A stretch of DNA of 64,000 bases from Candidatus Zixiibacteriota bacterium (GTDB lineage: Bacteria; Zixibacteria; MSB-5A5; GN15; PGXB01). The position numbers were made by a program, and so were the translations under genes. The stretch is taken from the NCBI GenBank assembly GCA_016933955.1, contig JAFGTT010000038.1, positions 62,001 to 126,000 on the forward strand. The letters run 5' to 3'. Positions within the stretch are counted from its first letter, which is position 1; every line of letters begins with the position of its first letter. The notes under the pieces are model-generated. The model made no database searches, was not told where the DNA came from, and saw only the letters and a list, made by a program, of their open reading frames with translations. Shown in pieces: positions 58 to 9,599 of the stretch.

Positions 58-816
58 GTGAAACAGACATTATTCGTAACACTCAACTTTCTGATCTCGT
101 TTACGATCGGTTATGTCGTCTGGGGCGTTATCCTTAAAGCCCAGCCGGCGGGGACAATCGCCCATTCGGTACATCAGGGCGGACCTCTGGTGGTTGTATT
201 GTTTACCATTCTTCTTATGCTCATTGCTTTTGTGGTTGAAAGGTTTCTATCCCTTTATCGGGTTGCGAAGGGTAAGAGCTCGGTCCAGGTTTTCTTTAAG
301 AAGCTGGTAACGATGCTTCACAGTGACGATTACGACGGTGCCCTGGCCGCCTGTGACAAACAGCGCGGAACGACCGCCAATGTTTTACGGGCCGGGATCG
401 AGAAGTTCCGTTCGATCAAAGACGACGGATCCATCGAACCCGAAAAGAAAATCGCTTTAACCCAGGGTGCTATTGATGAGGCCAACGCTCTCGAGGGGCC
501 GCTCCTGGAAAGAAACCTGATTGCTCTTTCGACCATCGCTTCGATTGCCACCATGGTCGGTCTTCTGGGAACGACAATCGGTATGATTCGCGCCTTTGCC
601 GCGACCGGTAATGTCGAGGGCGGTGTGATCGATGCCCAGTCACTGGCGACCGGTATTTCGGAAGCGCTGGTGAATACGGCCGGCGGTCTGGTTTCCGGTA
701 TTCTCGGAATCTTTTTCTATAATTTCTTTGTTAATAAGGTGGACGCCTTTAACTATACGACCGATGAAGCTACCTTCGAGGTAATACAGATATTAAAGGA
801 CAAGGTGGGTAAGTAA
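58..816 (+). CDS. exbB: ExbB/TolQ/MotA-family proton channel protein
   Basis: Inner-membrane proton-channel subunit that, with ExbD, powers TonB-dependent outer-membrane transport. The 252-residue protein starts at a GTG preceded by GGAGG at 43-47. Hydrophobic segments lie at about residues 5-27, 44-65, 152-180 and 200-228; the last two carry the Gly/Thr-rich channel helices (for example GLLGTTIGMIRAF, then a GGLVSGILG stretch). The first segment is extra compared with the usual three-helix ExbB. A cytoplasmic loop of about 85 residues separates segments 2 and 3. It leads an exbB-exbD-exbD-tonB operon with gaps of 2 to 27 bases. Family assignment is firm; the transported substrate is unknown. 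Confidence 0.93.
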   Translation: MKQTLFVTLNFLISFTIGYVVWGVILKAQPAGTIAHSVHQGGPLVVVLFTILLMLIAFVVERFLSLYRVAKGKSSVQVFFKKLVTMLHSDDYDGALAACDKQRGTTANVLRAGIEKFRSIKDDGSIEPEKKIALTQGAIDEANALEGPLLERNLIALSTIASIATMVGLLGTTIGMIRAFAATGNVEGGVIDAQSLATGISEALVNTAGGLVSGILGIFFYNFFVNKVDAFNYTTDEATFEVIQILKDKVGK

Positions 817-819
817 CTC

Positions 820-1314
820 ATGGCTATAAAGAAAAAAAGGCGTATCGGCGTCGTGCTCGATATGACGCCTATGGTGGATATTACCATCCTCCTGCTCATT
901 TTCTATATGACGACCACGAGTTTCAAACCGCCCGAGGCAAAATCGGTAACTCTGCCGCAATCGCATTCGCAAATCGAGCTACCGGACAAGGACATTATTA
1001 ATATCACGGTGACCAAAAAGGACTCCATTTTTGTCGATTTCCTTCAGAAGGAGGATGTGATTATTGACGGAGTCGAACGGACGACGACCGTAAGGAAAGT
1101 GGCCGAGGCCGATCTTTATAATGTGGCCTCGCTGATCCAGCGGGCGCGCGCCGTTAATTTTCGAGCCTTACTTGTTATCAAAGCCGACCGCGACGCCAGT
1201 TACGGGGTGATGGATAAGATTATGGAATCGATGCGGGAAAACGAACTGACCCGGTTTCTGATTATTACCGATAACGAGGCCGAGACAATCGCCAAAGAAG
1301 AGGCGGGTACATAA
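820..1314 (+). CDS. exbD: ExbD/TolR-family biopolymer transport protein (first copy)
   Basis: Partner of ExbB in the proton-driven motor. The 164-residue protein has a short Lys/Arg-rich cytoplasmic start and one membrane helix at about residues 12-34 containing the family motif DMTPMVD. Asp20 is the expected proton-carrying residue. The rest is a periplasmic ExbD domain. The ATG follows a GGTGGG ribosome-binding site at the end of exbB, three bases after its stop, which implies translational coupling. A second, longer ExbD follows directly, so this motor probably uses two ExbD types. Confidence 0.92.
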   Translation: MAIKKKRRIGVVLDMTPMVDITILLLIFYMTTTSFKPPEAKSVTLPQSHSQIELPDKDIINITVTKKDSIFVDFLQKEDVIIDGVERTTTVRKVAEADLYNVASLIQRARAVNFRALLVIKADRDASYGVMDKIMESMRENELTRFLIITDNEAETIAKEEAGT

Positions 1315-1341
1315 TGACGCCGATTGAAAGGAGTGATATAG

Positions 1342-1989
1342 ATGGCCGGTGGTGCTGTTGCAGAATCAAGTAGATCGCATAAAGGCAAGGGTGGTCGTCG
1401 CAAGAAACGTCGTATTCATGTAAGAATCGATATGACCCCGATGGTCGATATCGTTATGTTGCTTTTGATATTTTACATGGTGACGACGGTTTTCTCGATG
1501 CCGCAGGCGATGGAAATTAACCTGCCGACTGAAAAGGAGACGGATACAATCGAAGTGGCCGAATCGAGACTGCTGACGATAAGGATTGATCAGGAAGACC
1601 GATTTTTCTGGAATATCGGCGATCCGGCTAAAAACACGCCGCAACTTATGCCATCCGTTCTCCCGGCGGGGGATACTCTTGGCTACCTGGTTTCGGCTGA
1701 TTCCCTGCGAAACCTGCTGGTGAACCTGAATCATGATATTCCGAAATTGAATACGCTGATTCTGATAAATAATGAGGCCCGTTATAATTCCATGGTTGAT
1801 ATTCTCGATGAGATTGACCTTCTGGAAAGGTCATGGAATGCCCAGATCGCCAAGGGCCTCGGTAAAAAAGTCGAGGAGCTGAGCCCGGAAGAAAAGTTCT
1901 CCTACCGCTATGCCATGGGCAAGTGGGAAGATACCGATGATCGTATCGTTCAGTATGCCCTCAATGTTGCGCAGGGAGGGGGTGAATAA
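1342..1989 (+). CDS. exbD: ExbD/TolR-family biopolymer transport protein (second copy)
   Basis: A second ExbD paralogue of 215 residues, longer than the first. It has a basic N-terminal tail (residues 14-24 rich in Lys/Arg), then a membrane helix with DMTPMVD, Asp36 being the predicted proton carrier. The periplasmic part is enlarged and ends in an acidic/aromatic tail after about residue 165 that ordinary ExbD proteins lack. The ribosome-binding site AAAGGAG lies at 1327-1333. Two different ExbD proteins after a single ExbB are common in Bacteroidetes-type and delta-proteobacterial TonB loci, so this copy probably forms heteromers with the preceding one. Confidence 0.9.
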   Translation: MAGGAVAESSRSHKGKGGRRKKRRIHVRIDMTPMVDIVMLLLIFYMVTTVFSMPQAMEINLPTEKETDTIEVAESRLLTIRIDQEDRFFWNIGDPAKNTPQLMPSVLPAGDTLGYLVSADSLRNLLVNLNHDIPKLNTLILINNEARYNSMVDILDEIDLLERSWNAQIAKGLGKKVEELSPEEKFSYRYAMGKWEDTDDRIVQYALNVAQGGGE

Positions 1990-1991
1990 CA

Positions 1992-2738
1992 ATGGCTCGA
2001 CCCTATAGTGGAATGTATGGCGGTTACGGCGCCTATGAGCTTAAGGCCAGGTACCAGCGAAATATGTTCGCGGGGACTATTTTTACGGTTCTTCTGGTGG
2101 CCGTGGTCGTCCTGGCGGTTTTCGTCTATCAGCAGTTGACCAAGGTTGAGGCGGTGGCCATGCAACCGACCATTATCAAGACGGTGGCCGATCTCGGTCC
2201 GCCGCCGACAATATCCAAACCGAAACCGAGGGTGGAAATTTCCACACCCAACAAAGCGGCGCCCAAGGTGGGAATTCCCAAACCGGTGGCAGATGATGAT
2301 GTTCTGGACGAGGATGTAGTGATTGCTTCCCGTGATGAAATCGCGGAGATTGTGGCGCCTCCGGTTTCTGCTATTTCCGATGAAGGCGGTGGCGAGATTG
2401 TCGTCGATATCGCCGAGGACGAATTCATGCCGGATATCAATGAATTTGTACCGGTGGAAGTCCCGGCGGAGATGATCTACGAGGAGCCGCCAAATTATCC
2501 CCGTCTGGCCCGTCAGGCCGGTATGGAGGCGGTGGTTTGGGTTAAGGCCCTGGTTGATAAAAATGGCAATGTTCGTGAAGCAGTGGTTTATAAATCTTCC
2601 GGTTCCAAAGCCGGATTCGATGAAGCCGCGGTGGAAGCGGCTTATAAATGCAAATATAAACCGGCAATTCAGAATGGCCGACCGGTGGCTATCTGGGTAG
2701 CTTACTCGGTCGAATTTACTTTGACCGACGCTCACTAA
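1992..2738 (+). CDS. tonB: TonB-family energy transducer (first copy)
   Basis: Couples the ExbBD motor to outer-membrane receptors. The 248-residue protein has an unusually conserved cytoplasmic start (YGAYELKARYQR), one membrane helix at about residues 26-48, a Pro/Lys segment at 58-95, an acidic linker, and a C-terminal TonB domain from about 155 (MIYEEPPNYPRLAR, then VKALVDKNGNV and KYKPAIQNGRPV). The linker is short and acidic rather than the usual long Pro-Lys rod. It starts two bases after exbD and is followed by a strong terminator, so it closes the operon. A near-copy lies at 3041. Confidence 0.93.
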   Translation: MARPYSGMYGGYGAYELKARYQRNMFAGTIFTVLLVAVVVLAVFVYQQLTKVEAVAMQPTIIKTVADLGPPPTISKPKPRVEISTPNKAAPKVGIPKPVADDDVLDEDVVIASRDEIAEIVAPPVSAISDEGGGEIVVDIAEDEFMPDINEFVPVEVPAEMIYEEPPNYPRLARQAGMEAVVWVKALVDKNGNVREAVVYKSSGSKAGFDEAAVEAAYKCKYKPAIQNGRPVAIWVAYSVEFTLTDAH

Positions 2739-2760
2739 GGAAAACTTCACATTAGCTTAA

Positions 2761-2789
2761 CGCCGCCCCTGCACGGGGCGGCGTTTTTT
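2761..2789 (+). terminator. Rho-independent terminator after the exbB-exbD-exbD-tonB operon
   Basis: A perfect 9-bp GC-only stem (CGCCGCCCC at 2761-2769 with GGGGCGGCG at 2775-2783), a five-base loop and six T residues. It lies 22 bases after the tonB stop. Confidence 0.95.
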
Positions 2790-3040
2790 ATCCGTTCAAT
2801 ATATATCTGACCAGGGAAGAAAATCGAATTTCACCTGTAATCGATATTAGAGGCATTAATCGTTAAACGGATCAATCCGGGGAAGCGTCATTTCATATAG
2901 AGCGATAAACCGGACAAGGTCGTAAGATTTGGGTATTTTCAGCACCGACCGGTGATCATCTCGTTACGATAATATTCCCGGAATTCCGGGCCTCATATAA
3001 ATGACCAGCATGTCCCCGCCTTCGAAAGGAGGATACAACT
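2790..3040 (+). other. Leader region between the two tonB genes
   Basis: About 250 bases with no convincing reading frame. It must contain the promoter of the second tonB, because a strong terminator closes the preceding operon, but no clear -35/-10 pair was recognised. A short palindrome CACCGACCGGTG lies near 2943-2954. A ribosome-binding site AAAGGAGG lies at 3026-3033, just before the ATG at 3041. Confidence 0.4.
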
Positions 3041-3814
3041 ATGAACCGATCCGGTCGGATCGCCGGAATGCCCTACGGGGCTTATGAACTCAAAGCCACC
3101 TATCAGCGCAGTATGCTACTGGGGACATTGAGTACGATTATCATGACAACCATGATTATCGGGGGGTTGCACTTATATCTGTTGTATTCTCCAGAGAGAA
3201 TAATTATTGAAGCCCGAACACCCCCAATAATCGGCGGCATATCTCAGCCATCTCCACCGCCATCGGTCGAGCGCGATAAACCGAATATTTCCGGAAAAAG
3301 ACGCCCGGCCGTGATCAACTCAGAAATTCACAATAGGCCGGTGCTGGTCGATGATAGTCTGTTATTGGAAGTCGAGGATAACAACCTGTCGACAAATGCG
3401 GAAATAGGCGAATTCTTAAATGGTGTTTATGGTGCCGGTGGGGGTGATACCGGTGAAGGAGACAGAACTTTTAATTATTGCGGAAACGGGACCGTCCCGG
3501 AATATCCATTGATCGACAGCGTCTTCTTTGTCGAGCAGTTACCGGTCATGATTTATGAGGAGCCGCCCGATTATCCGAGGCCGGCCCGGATGGCGGGGAT
3601 TGAGGGTATGGTCTGGATTAAGGCGCTGGTAGATAAGAATGGCAATGTGATCGAGGCGGTTGTGTTCAAATCATCGGGTACCCGGGCGGGATTGGATGAG
3701 GCGGCCCGCCAGGCGGCTTTCGAATGCAAGTATAAACCGGCCATACAAAACGGTTATCCGGTTCCCGTTTGGGTAACCTATAAGGTGGAATTCCGATTGA
3801 GGGATTCAAGATAA
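3041..3814 (+). CDS. tonB: TonB-family energy transducer (second copy)
   Basis: A 257-residue paralogue of the preceding TonB. It shares the cytoplasmic GAYELKATYQR motif, a membrane helix at about residues 27-48 and an almost identical C-terminal TonB domain (MIYEEPPDYPRPAR, VKALVDKNGNV, KYKPAIQNGYPV). The middle differs: a shorter Pro-rich part and a Gly-rich insertion around residues 128-165 with a lone Cys. It has its own ribosome-binding site and its own terminator, so it is a separate transcription unit with no ExbB/ExbD of its own, and it probably shares the upstream motor. The two copies look like a local duplication with diverged linkers, perhaps serving different receptors. Confidence 0.92.
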   Translation: MNRSGRIAGMPYGAYELKATYQRSMLLGTLSTIIMTTMIIGGLHLYLLYSPERIIIEARTPPIIGGISQPSPPPSVERDKPNISGKRRPAVINSEIHNRPVLVDDSLLLEVEDNNLSTNAEIGEFLNGVYGAGGGDTGEGDRTFNYCGNGTVPEYPLIDSVFFVEQLPVMIYEEPPDYPRPARMAGIEGMVWIKALVDKNGNVIEAVVFKSSGTRAGLDEAARQAAFECKYKPAIQNGYPVPVWVTYKVEFRLRDSR

Positions 3815-4026: not shown

Positions 4027-4055
4027 TTGACAACTGCACAAATGTGCAGTATATA
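4027..4055 (+). promoter_or_regulatory. Near-consensus promoter with a palindromic operator in its spacer (candidate LexA/SOS box)
   Basis: TTGACA at 4027-4032 and TATATA at 4050-4055 are separated by exactly 17 bases. The spacer is occupied by the perfect inverted repeat ACTGCACA-AA-TGTGCAGT (4033-4050), whose last base is also the first base of the -10. A repressor bound here would cover both promoter hexamers. The core TGCAC-AAAT-GTGCA fits the pattern TGCNC-N4-GTGCA that I recall being reported for the LexA box of Fibrobacter succinogenes, another FCB-group bacterium. The genes downstream (zinc ribbon, helicase, Lon-like protease) suit a damage response. The promoter is seen directly; assignment to LexA is inference. 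Confidence 0.75.
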
Positions 4056-4099
4056 TGTTTGGAGTCGATAATTAATCATATGGAGAAGGAGAATCGATC

Positions 4100-4291
4100 A
4101 TGATAAACGAACTTGGGCAATCTGTCTCCGGAATTGAAACCACCCCTATTGTTACAGGGCGGGATAAGGAACCGATCCGGCGGGAAATTCGGTTTGATTC
4201 GAATTTGGTCTGTCCGGACTGCGGGGTGTCGCTGGTACGGCTGGGCACCTGTTTTACCTGTCCGCGATGTGGTTTCGGCGGCTGTGAATGA
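4100..4291 (+). CDS. Small zinc-ribbon protein resembling the C-terminal tail of B12-dependent ribonucleotide reductase
   Basis: A 63-residue protein with a charged, poorly conserved N-terminal half and a C-terminal zinc ribbon: CPDCG at 38-42, CFTCPRCG further on, and a final GGCE. The spacing and the GTC-x-x-C-x-x-CG-x-x-x-GC ending resemble the C-terminal redox/zinc tail of class II NrdJ reductases, but no catalytic barrel is present. The start has GAGAAGGAGA just upstream. It is the first gene after the palindromic operator and lies about 50 bases before the helicase, so the two are probably co-transcribed. It could be an orphan NrdJ tail, a helicase partner or a generic zinc ribbon; the function is unknown. 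Confidence 0.7.
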   Translation: MINELGQSVSGIETTPIVTGRDKEPIRREIRFDSNLVCPDCGVSLVRLGTCFTCPRCGFGGCE

Positions 4292-4342: not shown

Positions 4343-7039
4343 ATGAGACTTGGGAATCTGGTCAAATTCGATATTCCGGAATCGATTATCGAGGTTTGGA
4401 AGAGGCGCCAGGGCGATTATCTGCTTCCTCTTCAGGAAAAGGCGATCCGAAGCGGTTTGCTCCCGACCGGAGACGGTGCCCCAACTGACAATCTTTTGAT
4501 CTCCGCGCCGACATCATCGGGGAAATCATTCTGCGGTGAAATCGCGGCGGTGGGTTCGCTTCTGAAACGTCGCAAGGCAGTGATGCTTCTGCCGCTTAAA
4601 TCGATTGCCGAGGAGAAATATCATTATTATCGGTCATGTTATCGATCGCTGGGTTTGAGAATTCTGATTGTCACCGGCGATCATCCGGAAAACGATGGCG
4701 CTTTTGAACTGGGGAATTTTGATCTGGTCCTGGCGATTTATGAGAAATTCAATCGTTTGCTGACGGTCAATCCCGATTTATTGCAGCAGATCGGGTTGGT
4801 TATTGTAGATGAATTACAGATGCTTTCCGATCCCGGGCGCGGTCCGGAGCTGGAGATGGTCCTCGGCAAAATGCTCAGTTTTCCTTATTCGCCGCGGCTG
4901 GTGGCTCTCTCAGCGGTTCTGGGCGAATCATCGCCGGAGATCACGACCTGGTTGAATTGCCGGGTGATTCAGGAAACCGTTCGGCCGGTGGATCTGCTGG
5001 AAGGCGTGGCGAGTGGCGGGTGTTTTCGTTTTCGGTCGTTCAACAGCGGGCGGGAAGGGAAAGAGCGGATGGAACTGGGGGGTGGTGATGGCGACGATTC
5101 GGGAGTCGGGGGGATTATAGATTTTCTGGCCGGGAGTGAAAGCCCGCGTCTGGTATTTCTCAAATCCCGGCGGGATACTATCGATGCGGCTCTTCGTCTG
5201 GCCGCGGCGGTGAACTGGGGTCCGGCGGGGATGGCTCTTGACGCTATTGAAGGCGAAGAACCGGGGTTTTTAATTAATTCGTTGAAACAGGTTCTAAATC
5301 GGGGAGTGGCTTTTCATAGCGCCGATTTGACTCCGCGGCAACGGCGGGCCGTTGAAAACGGTTATCGCCGGGGCGAAATCCGGGTGGTTTTTTCCACTAC
5401 GACCTTGGCGATGGGAGTTAATCTGCCGGCCGAAATGGTATTGCTGGAAACCATGAAATATGTTTCCGGGGCACCAGGCGGAAAACCGTCCCTGGTTCCG
5501 ATCAGCCTGACGGAATTCCGGAATATTTCCGGGCGGGCGGGACGGTTTGGGTGGGGCGGTTCGGAGAAGCCGGGTCGGGCGGTGGTCCTGGCAAGATCGG
5601 ATTTTGAGTATGAAATTCTCTGGTCGGAATATATCGGGGCCGGGTCAAATGAAAAACTGGTTTCGGCGCTGGGCGGTTACTCGCGGGCCGATCTGGTGCT
5701 TGACCTGATTGTTTCCGGATTGGGGGCGGATATGTCACGGCTTCTATCGACGGTGAATAATATGTTGTACTATCGATGTCACGGCGCCCTGACGGAAAAT
5801 GAGATTGAACCGGTGGTGGCGGAATTGCAAACGGCGGGTCTGATCCGTTCCTCCCTGGAAGCTACACCCCTCGGAGCGGCGGTGGCTGAGAGCGGGATTA
5901 AGATCGAAAGCGCCCGTCATTACCTGCGGTTGCTCGATGAAAAACAGCCGGCCACCATGGTCGGCTGGTTGTTCCTGGCCCTGAGCGCTTCGGAATTCGA
6001 TGTGGCTCGTTCCGGGATGTTGTCCCCGGAATATTATCGTCGCACCTACGAACGGGTTTTGCACCGTCATTTCAGCGAGTATATCGGGGAAATCAGTGCC
6101 TACAGCGAAATTGATATCGGTCGGGAACCGCTGGGATACCGCATGATGGCGCTTTTGAAGGCGGTCTTTATGCTGACTGATTGGGCCGGGAAGCTTCCGG
6201 TCAGCCGGCTGGAGCGGCGATACCGGTTGCATCACGGGCAAATTCTCAACCAGGCCGAGACAGCCGCCTGGCTTTTGGCTTCGCTGGGGCGGTTGATCCA
6301 TGCCCGGGACTGCCATTCCCGAATACCGGCCGAATTAGCCGATCTGGCCTTTCGGGTGCAGTTCGGGATCGATCCGGCCATGAAAGAAATCCATTGTCTG
6401 ACCGGGGATATACTTAATCGGGCCGATTATGGAATGCTGGAGGAGCGCAATATTCGATCACTGGATGACCTTCGGTGGACACCTGAAGAAAGTCTTCGGG
6501 AAATCATTCGGCCGGAGAATAAATTTCGCCGGCTTAAAAAAGAAATAGACAATTTGGAACAGGAGGATAAAATGCAGGAAACAACCAGCAGTCAGATGAT
6601 CCCCATGAGGGGGATAAAAGGCGGGAGCAATTCTTTTATAAATTCCGCCGGTTCCCGACCTTCGTTGCTTGAGCTCGACGGCAGTTATGAGCGGGAGAGG
6701 TATCTGGTAAGAATCGACGGTTTTCCGGTGCGTCTGACCGGAAAATCGTTCAAATATCTGGCGAAACTGGCTTCGTCGCGGATTCATGGTAATGATGGCT
6801 GGATTTACAAAGATGATATCGAGATAGGTTTCAACCAGGCCCGTTATTTGTACCGGTTGAAGCAGGAGATGAAAGCCGGCGGGGTAGGCTGGGGTATATT
6901 CGAGAATAATCGTCTCGGTTACTACCGGCTGGATCTTGACCCGGGCCGGGTAAAACTTAATCTCCATAATCTTAAGAGTCACTCGGACTATGAGTTGCGC
7001 CAGATCGCCCAGGATCTGGAACTCAAGATGGCCAGTTAA
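4343..7039 (+). CDS. Ski2/Hel308-like DExH helicase with a C-terminal winged-helix domain
   Basis: A superfamily-2 helicase of 898 residues. Visible motifs are Walker A APTSSGKS at 55-62, motif Ib-like LPLKSIAEEKY, the DExH box DELQ at 156-159, motif III LSAVLG near 189, motif V near 350-360 and motif VI NISGRAGRFG from 394. Winged-helix and ratchet regions follow, with an HhH-like stretch near 690-720. The last part, about residues 785-872, reads like an OmpR-type winged helix (LTGKSFKYLAKLA, then ARYLYRLKQEM and NRLGYYRL), an unusual fusion for this family. The ribosome-binding site GGGAGG lies at 4329-4334. It is probably under the 4027 promoter with the zinc ribbon. A role in DNA repair or replication restart is inferred from family and operator. 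Confidence 0.88.
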   Translation: MRLGNLVKFDIPESIIEVWKRRQGDYLLPLQEKAIRSGLLPTGDGAPTDNLLISAPTSSGKSFCGEIAAVGSLLKRRKAVMLLPLKSIAEEKYHYYRSCYRSLGLRILIVTGDHPENDGAFELGNFDLVLAIYEKFNRLLTVNPDLLQQIGLVIVDELQMLSDPGRGPELEMVLGKMLSFPYSPRLVALSAVLGESSPEITTWLNCRVIQETVRPVDLLEGVASGGCFRFRSFNSGREGKERMELGGGDGDDSGVGGIIDFLAGSESPRLVFLKSRRDTIDAALRLAAAVNWGPAGMALDAIEGEEPGFLINSLKQVLNRGVAFHSADLTPRQRRAVENGYRRGEIRVVFSTTTLAMGVNLPAEMVLLETMKYVSGAPGGKPSLVPISLTEFRNISGRAGRFGWGGSEKPGRAVVLARSDFEYEILWSEYIGAGSNEKLVSALGGYSRADLVLDLIVSGLGADMSRLLSTVNNMLYYRCHGALTENEIEPVVAELQTAGLIRSSLEATPLGAAVAESGIKIESARHYLRLLDEKQPATMVGWLFLALSASEFDVARSGMLSPEYYRRTYERVLHRHFSEYIGEISAYSEIDIGREPLGYRMMALLKAVFMLTDWAGKLPVSRLERRYRLHHGQILNQAETAAWLLASLGRLIHARDCHSRIPAELADLAFRVQFGIDPAMKEIHCLTGDILNRADYGMLEERNIRSLDDLRWTPEESLREIIRPENKFRRLKKEIDNLEQEDKMQETTSSQMIPMRGIKGGSNSFINSAGSRPSLLELDGSYERERYLVRIDGFPVRLTGKSFKYLAKLASSRIHGNDGWIYKDDIEIGFNQARYLYRLKQEMKAGGVGWGIFENNRLGYYRLDLDPGRVKLNLHNLKSHSDYELRQIAQDLELKMAS

Positions 7040-7166: not shown

Positions 7167-9599
7167 ATGATTCTGAAGCGGACTTCGCATATCCCCATCC
7201 TGGCTTCCCGAGGCACGCCGGAAATCCCGGTGATAGCTGTCAAGACGCTTGTTTTGTTTCCTGGTGAACTCGTTACCCTGCAATTGAAAAAGCCTGAAAA
7301 CCTGGCACTGATAAGAGAATACGCCGAAAGCCGGAAGGAGGTCGCTATTGCCTATACTCCCCGGGGTGATTATGAACATGGTCGGGCGGACCTGTGTCAG
7401 ATTGGCACAGCGGCCCGGATAGTCTCGGCTAAACAGGGTCCGGGGGATTCGCAGGTCATAGTTCTGGAAGGTCTGGGACGGATAGAATTAAAAGCGATCG
7501 GGCACAAAACGCCGTATTTGATGGCCAGAATTGCTTTCATTGATGAGGATCATTATACGGCCGGACCATCCGAAAAATTGTTCCATGAGATACTTGATAT
7601 AGCGCGACAGATAATAACGACCAGTCCGGCCTATCCCAACGAGTTATTATCCGATTTTGAACTGGGTCAGGATAATCCGGGACAATTCGCCGATCGTCTG
7701 GTCAGCACCCTGCATCTGCCGACTGAAAACAAGCAAAAAATTCTGGAGGCGATAAATGTTGATACCCGGTTTAAGAGGTTGACTCGATTTATGAAACTGG
7801 AATTACAGCGGGCGATTTTTTTATCGGAAGATGCGGTTTTGCCACATGATTCGGGTTTCGGAGCCAAAGGATTTCCTGATCGAGATAACTCACAGCTTGA
7901 TTTTATTCGGGATCTCAGGGAGAAAGTAAATGGCAATAAGACGCTTCCGGAGGAAGTCCGGGAACGGTGTCATCTGGAAATCAACCGGCTGAATTATCTT
8001 TCGACGGCTTCGGCCGAACATGGAACCACCAGCCAGTATATAAAATGGCTGATGAAGGTCCCCTGGAATGTGGTCCATCAGACCCGTTTCGATCTGGAGC
8101 AGTTGGAACAGGATATCGATAAGGAGTATTACGGCTCGAAAAGTATTAAGAAAAGAATTCTGGAGCGAATTGCGGTCAGAAAATTGACCGGGGATGGCAG
8201 TGATCGCTCGATTCTCTGTCTGGCGGGCATGGCCGGGACGGGCAAAGCCTCGCTGGCCAAGGCCATTGCCAAAGCTCTCAAAAAGGAATTTGTCCGGGTT
8301 TCGGTCGGGGGTGTACGGGAAGCTTCGGAAATTAAGGGCATGCCGCGAACTTATGTTGGGGCCGGTCCGGGTATGATAATTCGGACATTATGTGAGGCAG
8401 AGACATCCGACCCGGTTATTTTAATCGAGGATATTGATTATTTCAGCGAGGAATCGAGTACTTCGCTCTCGACTGCCCTGCTGGAAGCCATCGATCCCCG
8501 GTATAACTACCGGTTTCTTGATAAATACCTGGGTGTGGCGATTGATTTAAGCCGGGCGACTTTTATTTGTACTGTCAAATCATCCGAGGAAATTCCGGAG
8601 ATTTTCGCCAATCGATTCGAAATAATCGAGTTGACCGGTTATATTGAGAAAGACAAAATCCGTATTGCCCGCAAATATATCATACCCGATGTTTTGAAAA
8701 AGCACGGTCTTCTGAAACGGGATATTATCTTCAATGAAAAGGGCCTTCAAAAGATAATAAGGAATTATACGCTTGAAGCGGGTTTGCTTCATCTTAAGAG
8801 GAAAATCCAGATGATTTGCCGTCATGTGGCCAAGGAGAAAGCGGCCGGGGTGACGCGGGTTTGGAAAGTCAATGAGCGAACGGTGGAGAGTTTGTTGGGG
8901 ACGCCGCAGTATATTCCGGAAACACCCGGCAAGCAGCCCGAAATCGGGGTTGCCATCGGTCTGGCCTGGACCGGACAGGGAGGGGATTTGATGCTGATCG
9001 AAGGGTTGAAGATGAAGGGGAGCGGTGAGGTAATCACGACCGGTTCACTGGGCGAAGTGATGAAGGAGTCGATTACGGCGGCCCACAGCTATGTCCGCTC
9101 CAAGGCAGATGTTCTTGGAATCGATCACGCCGATTTCGATAATTTCGATATTCATATTCATTTTCCTTCAGGGGCGATCCCTAAAGACGGACCATCGGCT
9201 GGAGTGGCGGTATCGCTGGTAATCGCTTCGGTAATGTCGGAGCGCCCGATTCCCAATAATATTGCCATGACCGGGGAGGTAACATTGCGGGGGAAGGTTC
9301 TCCAGGTGGGTGGGCTGGTGGAAAAAATTTCTGCGGCATACCGGGCCGGAATCCAGACTGTATTTGTCCCGCGAGAGAGCAAAAAAGATTTAAAAAACCT
9401 TCCGGCCGATATATTGAAAAAAACCAGGTTTGTGTTTATCGAGACGGTCGATGAAGTATTCGCACAGGGGTTGCTTGATTTCGTGCCATCCAGTTATACC
9501 CTTGAGAAATTATTCGCCGACGAAATTAAGAAAGCCAAAAGCCGCAAGAAATCACATGCCACCCGGAGTATCGCGGCTAAAGGTCGCAAAAAGAAATAA
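7167..9599 (+). CDS. Lon-family protease with an intact Ser-Lys dyad but degenerate ATPase motifs
   Basis: LonA-type architecture in 810 residues: N-terminal substrate-binding domain (VLFPGE), AAA+ module, S16 protease. The protease is intact: Ser677 in KDGPSAG and Lys720 in GGLVEK, 43 residues apart, the same spacing as Ser679/Lys722 of E. coli Lon. The ATPase is not: Walker A reads GMAGTGKA (354-361), with Ala361 where Thr/Ser should follow the Lys; Walker B reads ILIEDID with Glu421-Asp422 in place of Asp-Glu; and the sensor-1 Asn is Lys471. The Arg-finger region ANRFEIIEL is kept. ATG 7167 was chosen because upstream in-frame codons overlap the helicase end and look non-Lon. It is probably a paralogue with weak or no ATP hydrolysis, comparable in concept to LonC. 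Confidence 0.88.
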   Translation: MILKRTSHIPILASRGTPEIPVIAVKTLVLFPGELVTLQLKKPENLALIREYAESRKEVAIAYTPRGDYEHGRADLCQIGTAARIVSAKQGPGDSQVIVLEGLGRIELKAIGHKTPYLMARIAFIDEDHYTAGPSEKLFHEILDIARQIITTSPAYPNELLSDFELGQDNPGQFADRLVSTLHLPTENKQKILEAINVDTRFKRLTRFMKLELQRAIFLSEDAVLPHDSGFGAKGFPDRDNSQLDFIRDLREKVNGNKTLPEEVRERCHLEINRLNYLSTASAEHGTTSQYIKWLMKVPWNVVHQTRFDLEQLEQDIDKEYYGSKSIKKRILERIAVRKLTGDGSDRSILCLAGMAGTGKASLAKAIAKALKKEFVRVSVGGVREASEIKGMPRTYVGAGPGMIIRTLCEAETSDPVILIEDIDYFSEESSTSLSTALLEAIDPRYNYRFLDKYLGVAIDLSRATFICTVKSSEEIPEIFANRFEIIELTGYIEKDKIRIARKYIIPDVLKKHGLLKRDIIFNEKGLQKIIRNYTLEAGLLHLKRKIQMICRHVAKEKAAGVTRVWKVNERTVESLLGTPQYIPETPGKQPEIGVAIGLAWTGQGGDLMLIEGLKMKGSGEVITTGSLGEVMKESITAAHSYVRSKADVLGIDHADFDNFDIHIHFPSGAIPKDGPSAGVAVSLVIASVMSERPIPNNIAMTGEVTLRGKVLQVGGLVEKISAAYRAGIQTVFVPRESKKDLKNLPADILKKTRFVFIETVDEVFAQGLLDFVPSSYTLEKLFADEIKKAKSRKKSHATRSIAAKGRKKK

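Follow-up and report, generated by a model that had tools for sequence, protein, structure and literature searches.

A predicted LexA operator in the promoter of a Hel308-like helicase operon of Zixibacteria

Promoter and genes of the helicase operon

The window (the whole 64-kb stretch of DNA analysed here) comes from a genome of the phylum Zixibacteria (3.38 Mb, 96.6% complete), which is placed in the FCB group. It carries an operon of three genes encoding a zinc-ribbon protein, a helicase and a protease of the Lon family, preceded by a promoter into which a palindrome is fitted (Table 1). Directly upstream of the operon (window positions 58-3814) lie ExbB/ExbD-like genes and then two tandem TonB-like genes (1992-2738 and 3041-3814), the second of which was confirmed as TonB_C.

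Table 1. Features of the helicase operon and its promoter (window positions)
Feature	Position	Strand	Basis or remark
-35 element TTGACA	4027..4032	+	sequence; kept in relatives
LexA operator (SOS box) ACTGCACAAATGTGCAGT, predicted	4033..4050	.	sequence; same element at lexA and across the phylum
-10 element TATATA	4050..4055	+	sequence; TATAAT in relative G079
Probable ribosome-binding site GAGAAGGAGA of the first gene	4083..4092	+	read from sequence
63-aa zinc-ribbon protein (CPDCG...CPRCG), first operon gene	4100..4291	+	conserved in most relatives
898-aa Hel308-like superfamily 2 helicase: RecA1/RecA2, Hel308 domain 4, C-terminal domain	4343..7039	+	
OmpR/PhoB-type winged-helix domain, helicase C-terminus	6635..7036	+	fold comparison
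810-aa Lon-family protease	7167..9599	+	start set by homology; longest ORF begins at 6990

Read from the sequence, positions 4027-4055 are TTGACA ACTGCACAAATGTGCAG TATATA, with an exact -35 element and a 17-base spacer. A perfect 18-bp palindrome of the 8-2-8 form, ACTGCACA-AA-TGTGCAGT, begins directly behind the -35 element, and its last T (4050) is at the same time the first base of the -10 element. This arrangement, a TTGACA-17-TATATA promoter with a perfect palindrome in its spacer, was the starting point of the original prediction and is confirmed. The -10 hexamer matches TATAAT at four of six positions, and a simple promoter scanner that requires the final T misses it. Since perfect 8-2-8 palindromes occur four times within the window, the one at 4033-4050 included, the palindrome taken alone is nothing unusual. 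This particular motif, however, has no other match in the window at up to three mismatches (0.04 expected).

Could the repeat be an RNA hairpin, a terminator-like element or a chance palindrome? A simple scan does flag it as terminator-like, and the three other perfect palindromes show that such repeats arise in this DNA, but it lies upstream of the probable transcription start, inside the promoter spacer, and it is conserved in sequence rather than in pairing alone and is also present at lexA (see below). We therefore give this explanation practically no weight; the conservation and the sharing with lexA refute it. It is the placement and the conservation of the palindrome, rather than the palindrome alone, that are decisive for reading it as an operator.

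The order zinc ribbon-helicase-Lon is kept in the relatives checked, with the zinc ribbon absent or undetected in some of them. The zinc-ribbon protein weakly matches the C-terminal ribbon of NrdJ, the B12-dependent ribonucleotide reductase. For the helicase, which the original prediction had named as such, the best models and structures are those of Hel308; the domain 4 model is matched, and Hel308/HELQ (PDB 2zj2, 2va8, 2p6r) gave the best sequence and fold matches, over ∼700 residues. We call the protein Hel308-like only, because its scores fall below the Hel308 equivalog cut-offs (207 vs 1200 bits for NF040935). It shares with Hel308/HELQ a motif IVa-like FHSADL (F/YHHAGL in PMC10484726). 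Unlike Hel308/HELQ it is bacterial, lies far below these cut-offs and has an added OmpR/PhoB winged helix.

Conservation within the helicase is highest over its C-terminal 134 residues. Their predicted fold is an OmpR/PhoB winged helix (pLDDT 81.7), which aligns with BaeR (Z 9.1, rmsd 2.6 over 89 residues), and nearly all top rows of the fold comparison belong to the OmpR/PhoB family. Pfam returned nothing credible for the helicase C-terminus, and the domain was identified by fold comparison only. The model of the full-length helicase, in which the domains are poorly packed (pTM 0.42), was used for family assignment only. On one contig of a relative (G085:C66, locus L131, 2155-3715) the box is followed by a stand-alone 189-amino-acid C-terminal winged-helix domain and then by Lon, the helicase motor being missing; this arrangement may reflect either an error of assembly or a genuine reduction.

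The protease scores above the cut-off of the model for ATP-dependent protease Lon (TIGR00763, 618 vs 608 bits) and has an intact Ser-Lys dyad. We call it Lon-like because its Walker A and Walker B motifs are GKA and ED instead of GK[ST] and DE, likewise in relatives; a further difference from the known protease is that the Zixibacteria copy is encoded in a predicted SOS operon. Two more Lon genes lie elsewhere in this genome.

A helicase next to a Lon-like protease also recalls anti-phage systems such as Hachiman or BREX, and in a PADLOC scan of the three operon genes the helicase matched HamB models (1e-35) and the protease matched BrxL (4e-17). However, Hel308 models score far better for the helicase (291 vs 121 bits). 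Moreover, it is present in 125 of 132 Zixibacteria genomes and the gene order is constant in the loci checked, unlike patchy defence islands. That the operon is a defence unit now under SOS control is thus unlikely in our estimation, and this alternative concerns the operon, not the operator: such an operon could still be controlled by LexA.

Operator sites at lexA and across the phylum

We located the element CTGNACANNTGTNCAG in the whole genome and found exactly two exact sites, one in the promoter of the helicase operon and the other in the spacer of the lexA promoter. At one mismatch there was no site in the whole genome, and at two mismatches the matches were background (40 places vs 41 for the reversed control in this genome); of five such places looked at, four fall within long ORFs and the fifth, in an intergenic region, lacks the promoter layout. 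The lexA promoter reads TTGACA-TCTGAACATATGTGCAG-TATAGT, with the -35 element, the spacing and the position of the operator the same as at the helicase operon. At both promoters the operator thus occupies the spacer, a position suited to blocking RNA polymerase.

This genome contains only one lexA gene and one Peptidase_S24 protein, a LexA of 205 amino acids that scores above the lexA equivalog cut-off (210 vs 111 bits). When it was aligned to E. coli LexA, the Ala-Gly cleavage site, the Ser and the Lys were all present, so that the protein has, together with its winged helix, what characterizes a self-cleavable LexA. The DUF6504-dinB pair is found ∼1.3 kb behind lexA, and dinB follows lexA at a shorter distance in several relatives. 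Between lexA and the pair lie a repeat-like insert and a DUF559-like ORF (G000:C27, L006/L212; ∼1.3 kb). A second Y-family polymerase gene, followed by a dnaE-like gene (G000:C15:105959-106402, L213), is without a LexA box, and no box was found upstream of recA of this genome, one of the places where the original prediction had proposed to look. Control of recA by the same LexA operator is common in bacteria but not universal, and so is not a strict requirement.

The assignment to Zixibacteria follows from the relatives of the helicase, which in a named genome collection are all MAGs of Candidatus Zixiibacteriota. We compared 132 genomes of this phylum, 114 of which have LexA. The -35/operator/-10 block is kept upstream of helicase genes whose products are only 42-60% identical. 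Among the helicases compared, which reach down to 42% identity, most have the element before them with little or no change; at lexA genes its form is looser. With at most one mismatch, the promoter-operator pattern TTGACANNTGNNCANNTGNGCAGTA occurred in 109 of the 132 genomes, usually twice, whereas the reversed pattern had one match. The 150 listed sites comprise 75 before the helicase, 63 before lexA and 12 elsewhere. Counted by gene, 63 of the 82 lexA genes tallied carry the operator at up to one mismatch, and most of the remaining ones that were checked have weaker forms. Three of the 12 other sites precede dinB (G007, G099 and G100), three precede SocA/Panacea antitoxin genes, five are on broken contigs or fragments and one is before an unknown gene. 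In families f15-f17 a further box stands before an imuB-like/dnaE2 operon in five genomes. The recA gene was not among the phylum sites examined, and the promoter-operator pattern had no exact counterpart in viral contigs.

The boxed genes led by SocA/Panacea (L123, L124 and L125 in G077, G084 and G045, respectively) are candidate SOS-controlled toxin-antitoxin units; Pfam confirms two of the three antitoxin proteins.

The presence of the box before lexA, dinB and imuB-like/dnaE2 genes, together with its conservation, leads us to regard it as the LexA operator and the SOS box of the phylum. This agrees with the original prediction, which had read the palindrome as an SOS box and had pointed to lexA and imuB-type genes as further places for it: the box is upstream of lexA in this genome and throughout the phylum, and relatives have it at dinB and imuB-like/dnaE2.

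Variation of the half-sites

The operator is not uniform. In the helicase promoter the core TGCAC-AAAT-GTGCA (4035-4048) fits TGCNC-N4-GTGCA exactly. This is reportedly the motif of the LexA operator of Fibrobacter succinogenes, an organism that, like Zixibacteria, belongs to the FCB group. At lexA of this genome the operator, TGAACATATGTGCA, has the core TGAAC-ATAT-GTGCA and does not fit this motif, and deep families of Zixibacteria have TGAACA on both sides. The label 'Fibrobacter type' given at first to the helicase box therefore holds for that box but not for the lexA box or for the deep families, which use TGAAC-N4-GTTCA.

Across the phylum the consensus half-site is TG[CA]ACA, while the core of the LexA recognition helix, STNGVR, is nearly invariant. 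In family f1 the helicase has TGCACA and lexA has TGAACA/TGTGCA. The two operators differ systematically in the large family f2, being TGAACA..TG[GA]GCA at lexA and TGCACA..TGTGCA at the helicase. TGAACA is found on both sides in f18/f19 and in G010, and the last has TGAACATCCGTTCAG at both lexA and the helicase. The deep boxes, CTGAACATTTGTTCAG, resemble the LexA operators of both Myxococcus xanthus (CTRHAMRYBYGTTCAGS, PMC9705874) and Bacillus subtilis (CGAAC-N4-GTTCG, PMC9578287), from which f1 and f2, including this genome, differ by having GTGCA as the right side and, in the helicase operator, TGCAC as the left side.

Within a genome, the lexA and helicase operators were more similar to each other than in shuffled pairings (permutation p = 0.026 by genome and 0.009 by family, rough values, since related genomes provide fewer independent comparisons). 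The compared sites thus indicate that the operator changes in step at the two genes in deep families and in G010.

These observations bear on the question of whether the palindrome could belong to a repressor other than LexA. Another winged-helix or HTH protein, for example the PhoB-like domain of the helicase acting as an autoregulator, might bind it, and the likeness to the lexA operator would then be convergence on a common promoter layout. The helicase does have an OmpR/PhoB-type DNA-binding domain, and in f2 its operator stays perfectly symmetric where the lexA operator does not. OmpR/PhoB domains, however, usually bind direct repeats, and here the site is a palindrome. The same 25-base element is found at lexA, dinB and imuB-like/dnaE2, genes that LexA controls in other bacteria, and the half-sites at lexA and the helicase shift in parallel in deep families and G010. 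We consider a different repressor very improbable. On formal grounds, the systematic difference in f2 leaves some probability of a second, related regulator.

Proposed control by LexA and its meaning

We propose that 4033-4050 is the operator of this lineage's LexA, which would repress the zinc ribbon-helicase-Lon operon until DNA is damaged (probability roughly 0.93). The operator itself, its sharing with lexA, dinB and imuB-like/dnaE2, its conservation and the make-up of the operon are observations; the binding of LexA, repression, induction by damage, its timing and a role of the products in repair we infer from sequence. LexA bound between -35 and -10 would deny RNA polymerase access to the promoter, whose -35 element is perfect. 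Upon DNA damage, RecA would load on single-stranded DNA and stimulate self-cleavage of LexA, and the zinc-ribbon protein, the helicase with its PhoB-like winged helix and the Lon-like protease would then be transcribed. LexA would at the same time autoregulate its own gene through a weaker operator. Of the 'strict switch' suggested at the outset, the geometry stands, as the operator fills the promoter spacer, and repression is what this geometry would imply.

More consensus-like, stronger boxes lead to later induction (review PMC9578287). Because the operator of the helicase operon is the most symmetric one and that of lexA is weaker, tight repression and late induction are probable for the operon, and lexA would be less tightly controlled and induced earlier. 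Several observations count against control by LexA: recA has no box, so that the classical loop is incomplete, the -10 element of the helicase-operon promoter is only a 4/6 match, the lexA and helicase operators differ systematically in f2, and the permutation by genome gives only p = 0.026.

In the open-access literature searched we found no description of a LexA motif or regulon of Zixibacteria, and Hel308/HELQ is described there as an archaeal and metazoan enzyme. The sites reported here define an SOS box for the phylum, in which the LexA operator moves between a Bacillus/Myxococcus-like form (TGAAC) and a Fibrobacter-like form (TGCAC), the lexA site of this genome being a hybrid of the two. 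With these shifting forms, how a repressor and its site evolve can be tested directly. The gene that carries the box most faithfully in Zixibacteria is neither recA nor a polymerase but the Hel308-like helicase with its operon; the expectation of a unit outside the usual LexA regulon is borne out. There is about an even chance that the zinc ribbon, the helicase and the Lon with altered Walker motifs form a dedicated damage-response machine, the phylum's most constant LexA target, in which a helicase carrying a domain that reads sequence or structure acts together with a protease at damaged or blocked DNA. This would place a repair helicase of archaeal type under bacterial SOS control. Taken from sequence, the conserved switch and the operon behind it point to a little-known DNA-repair unit of Zixibacteria that would be switched on by DNA damage.
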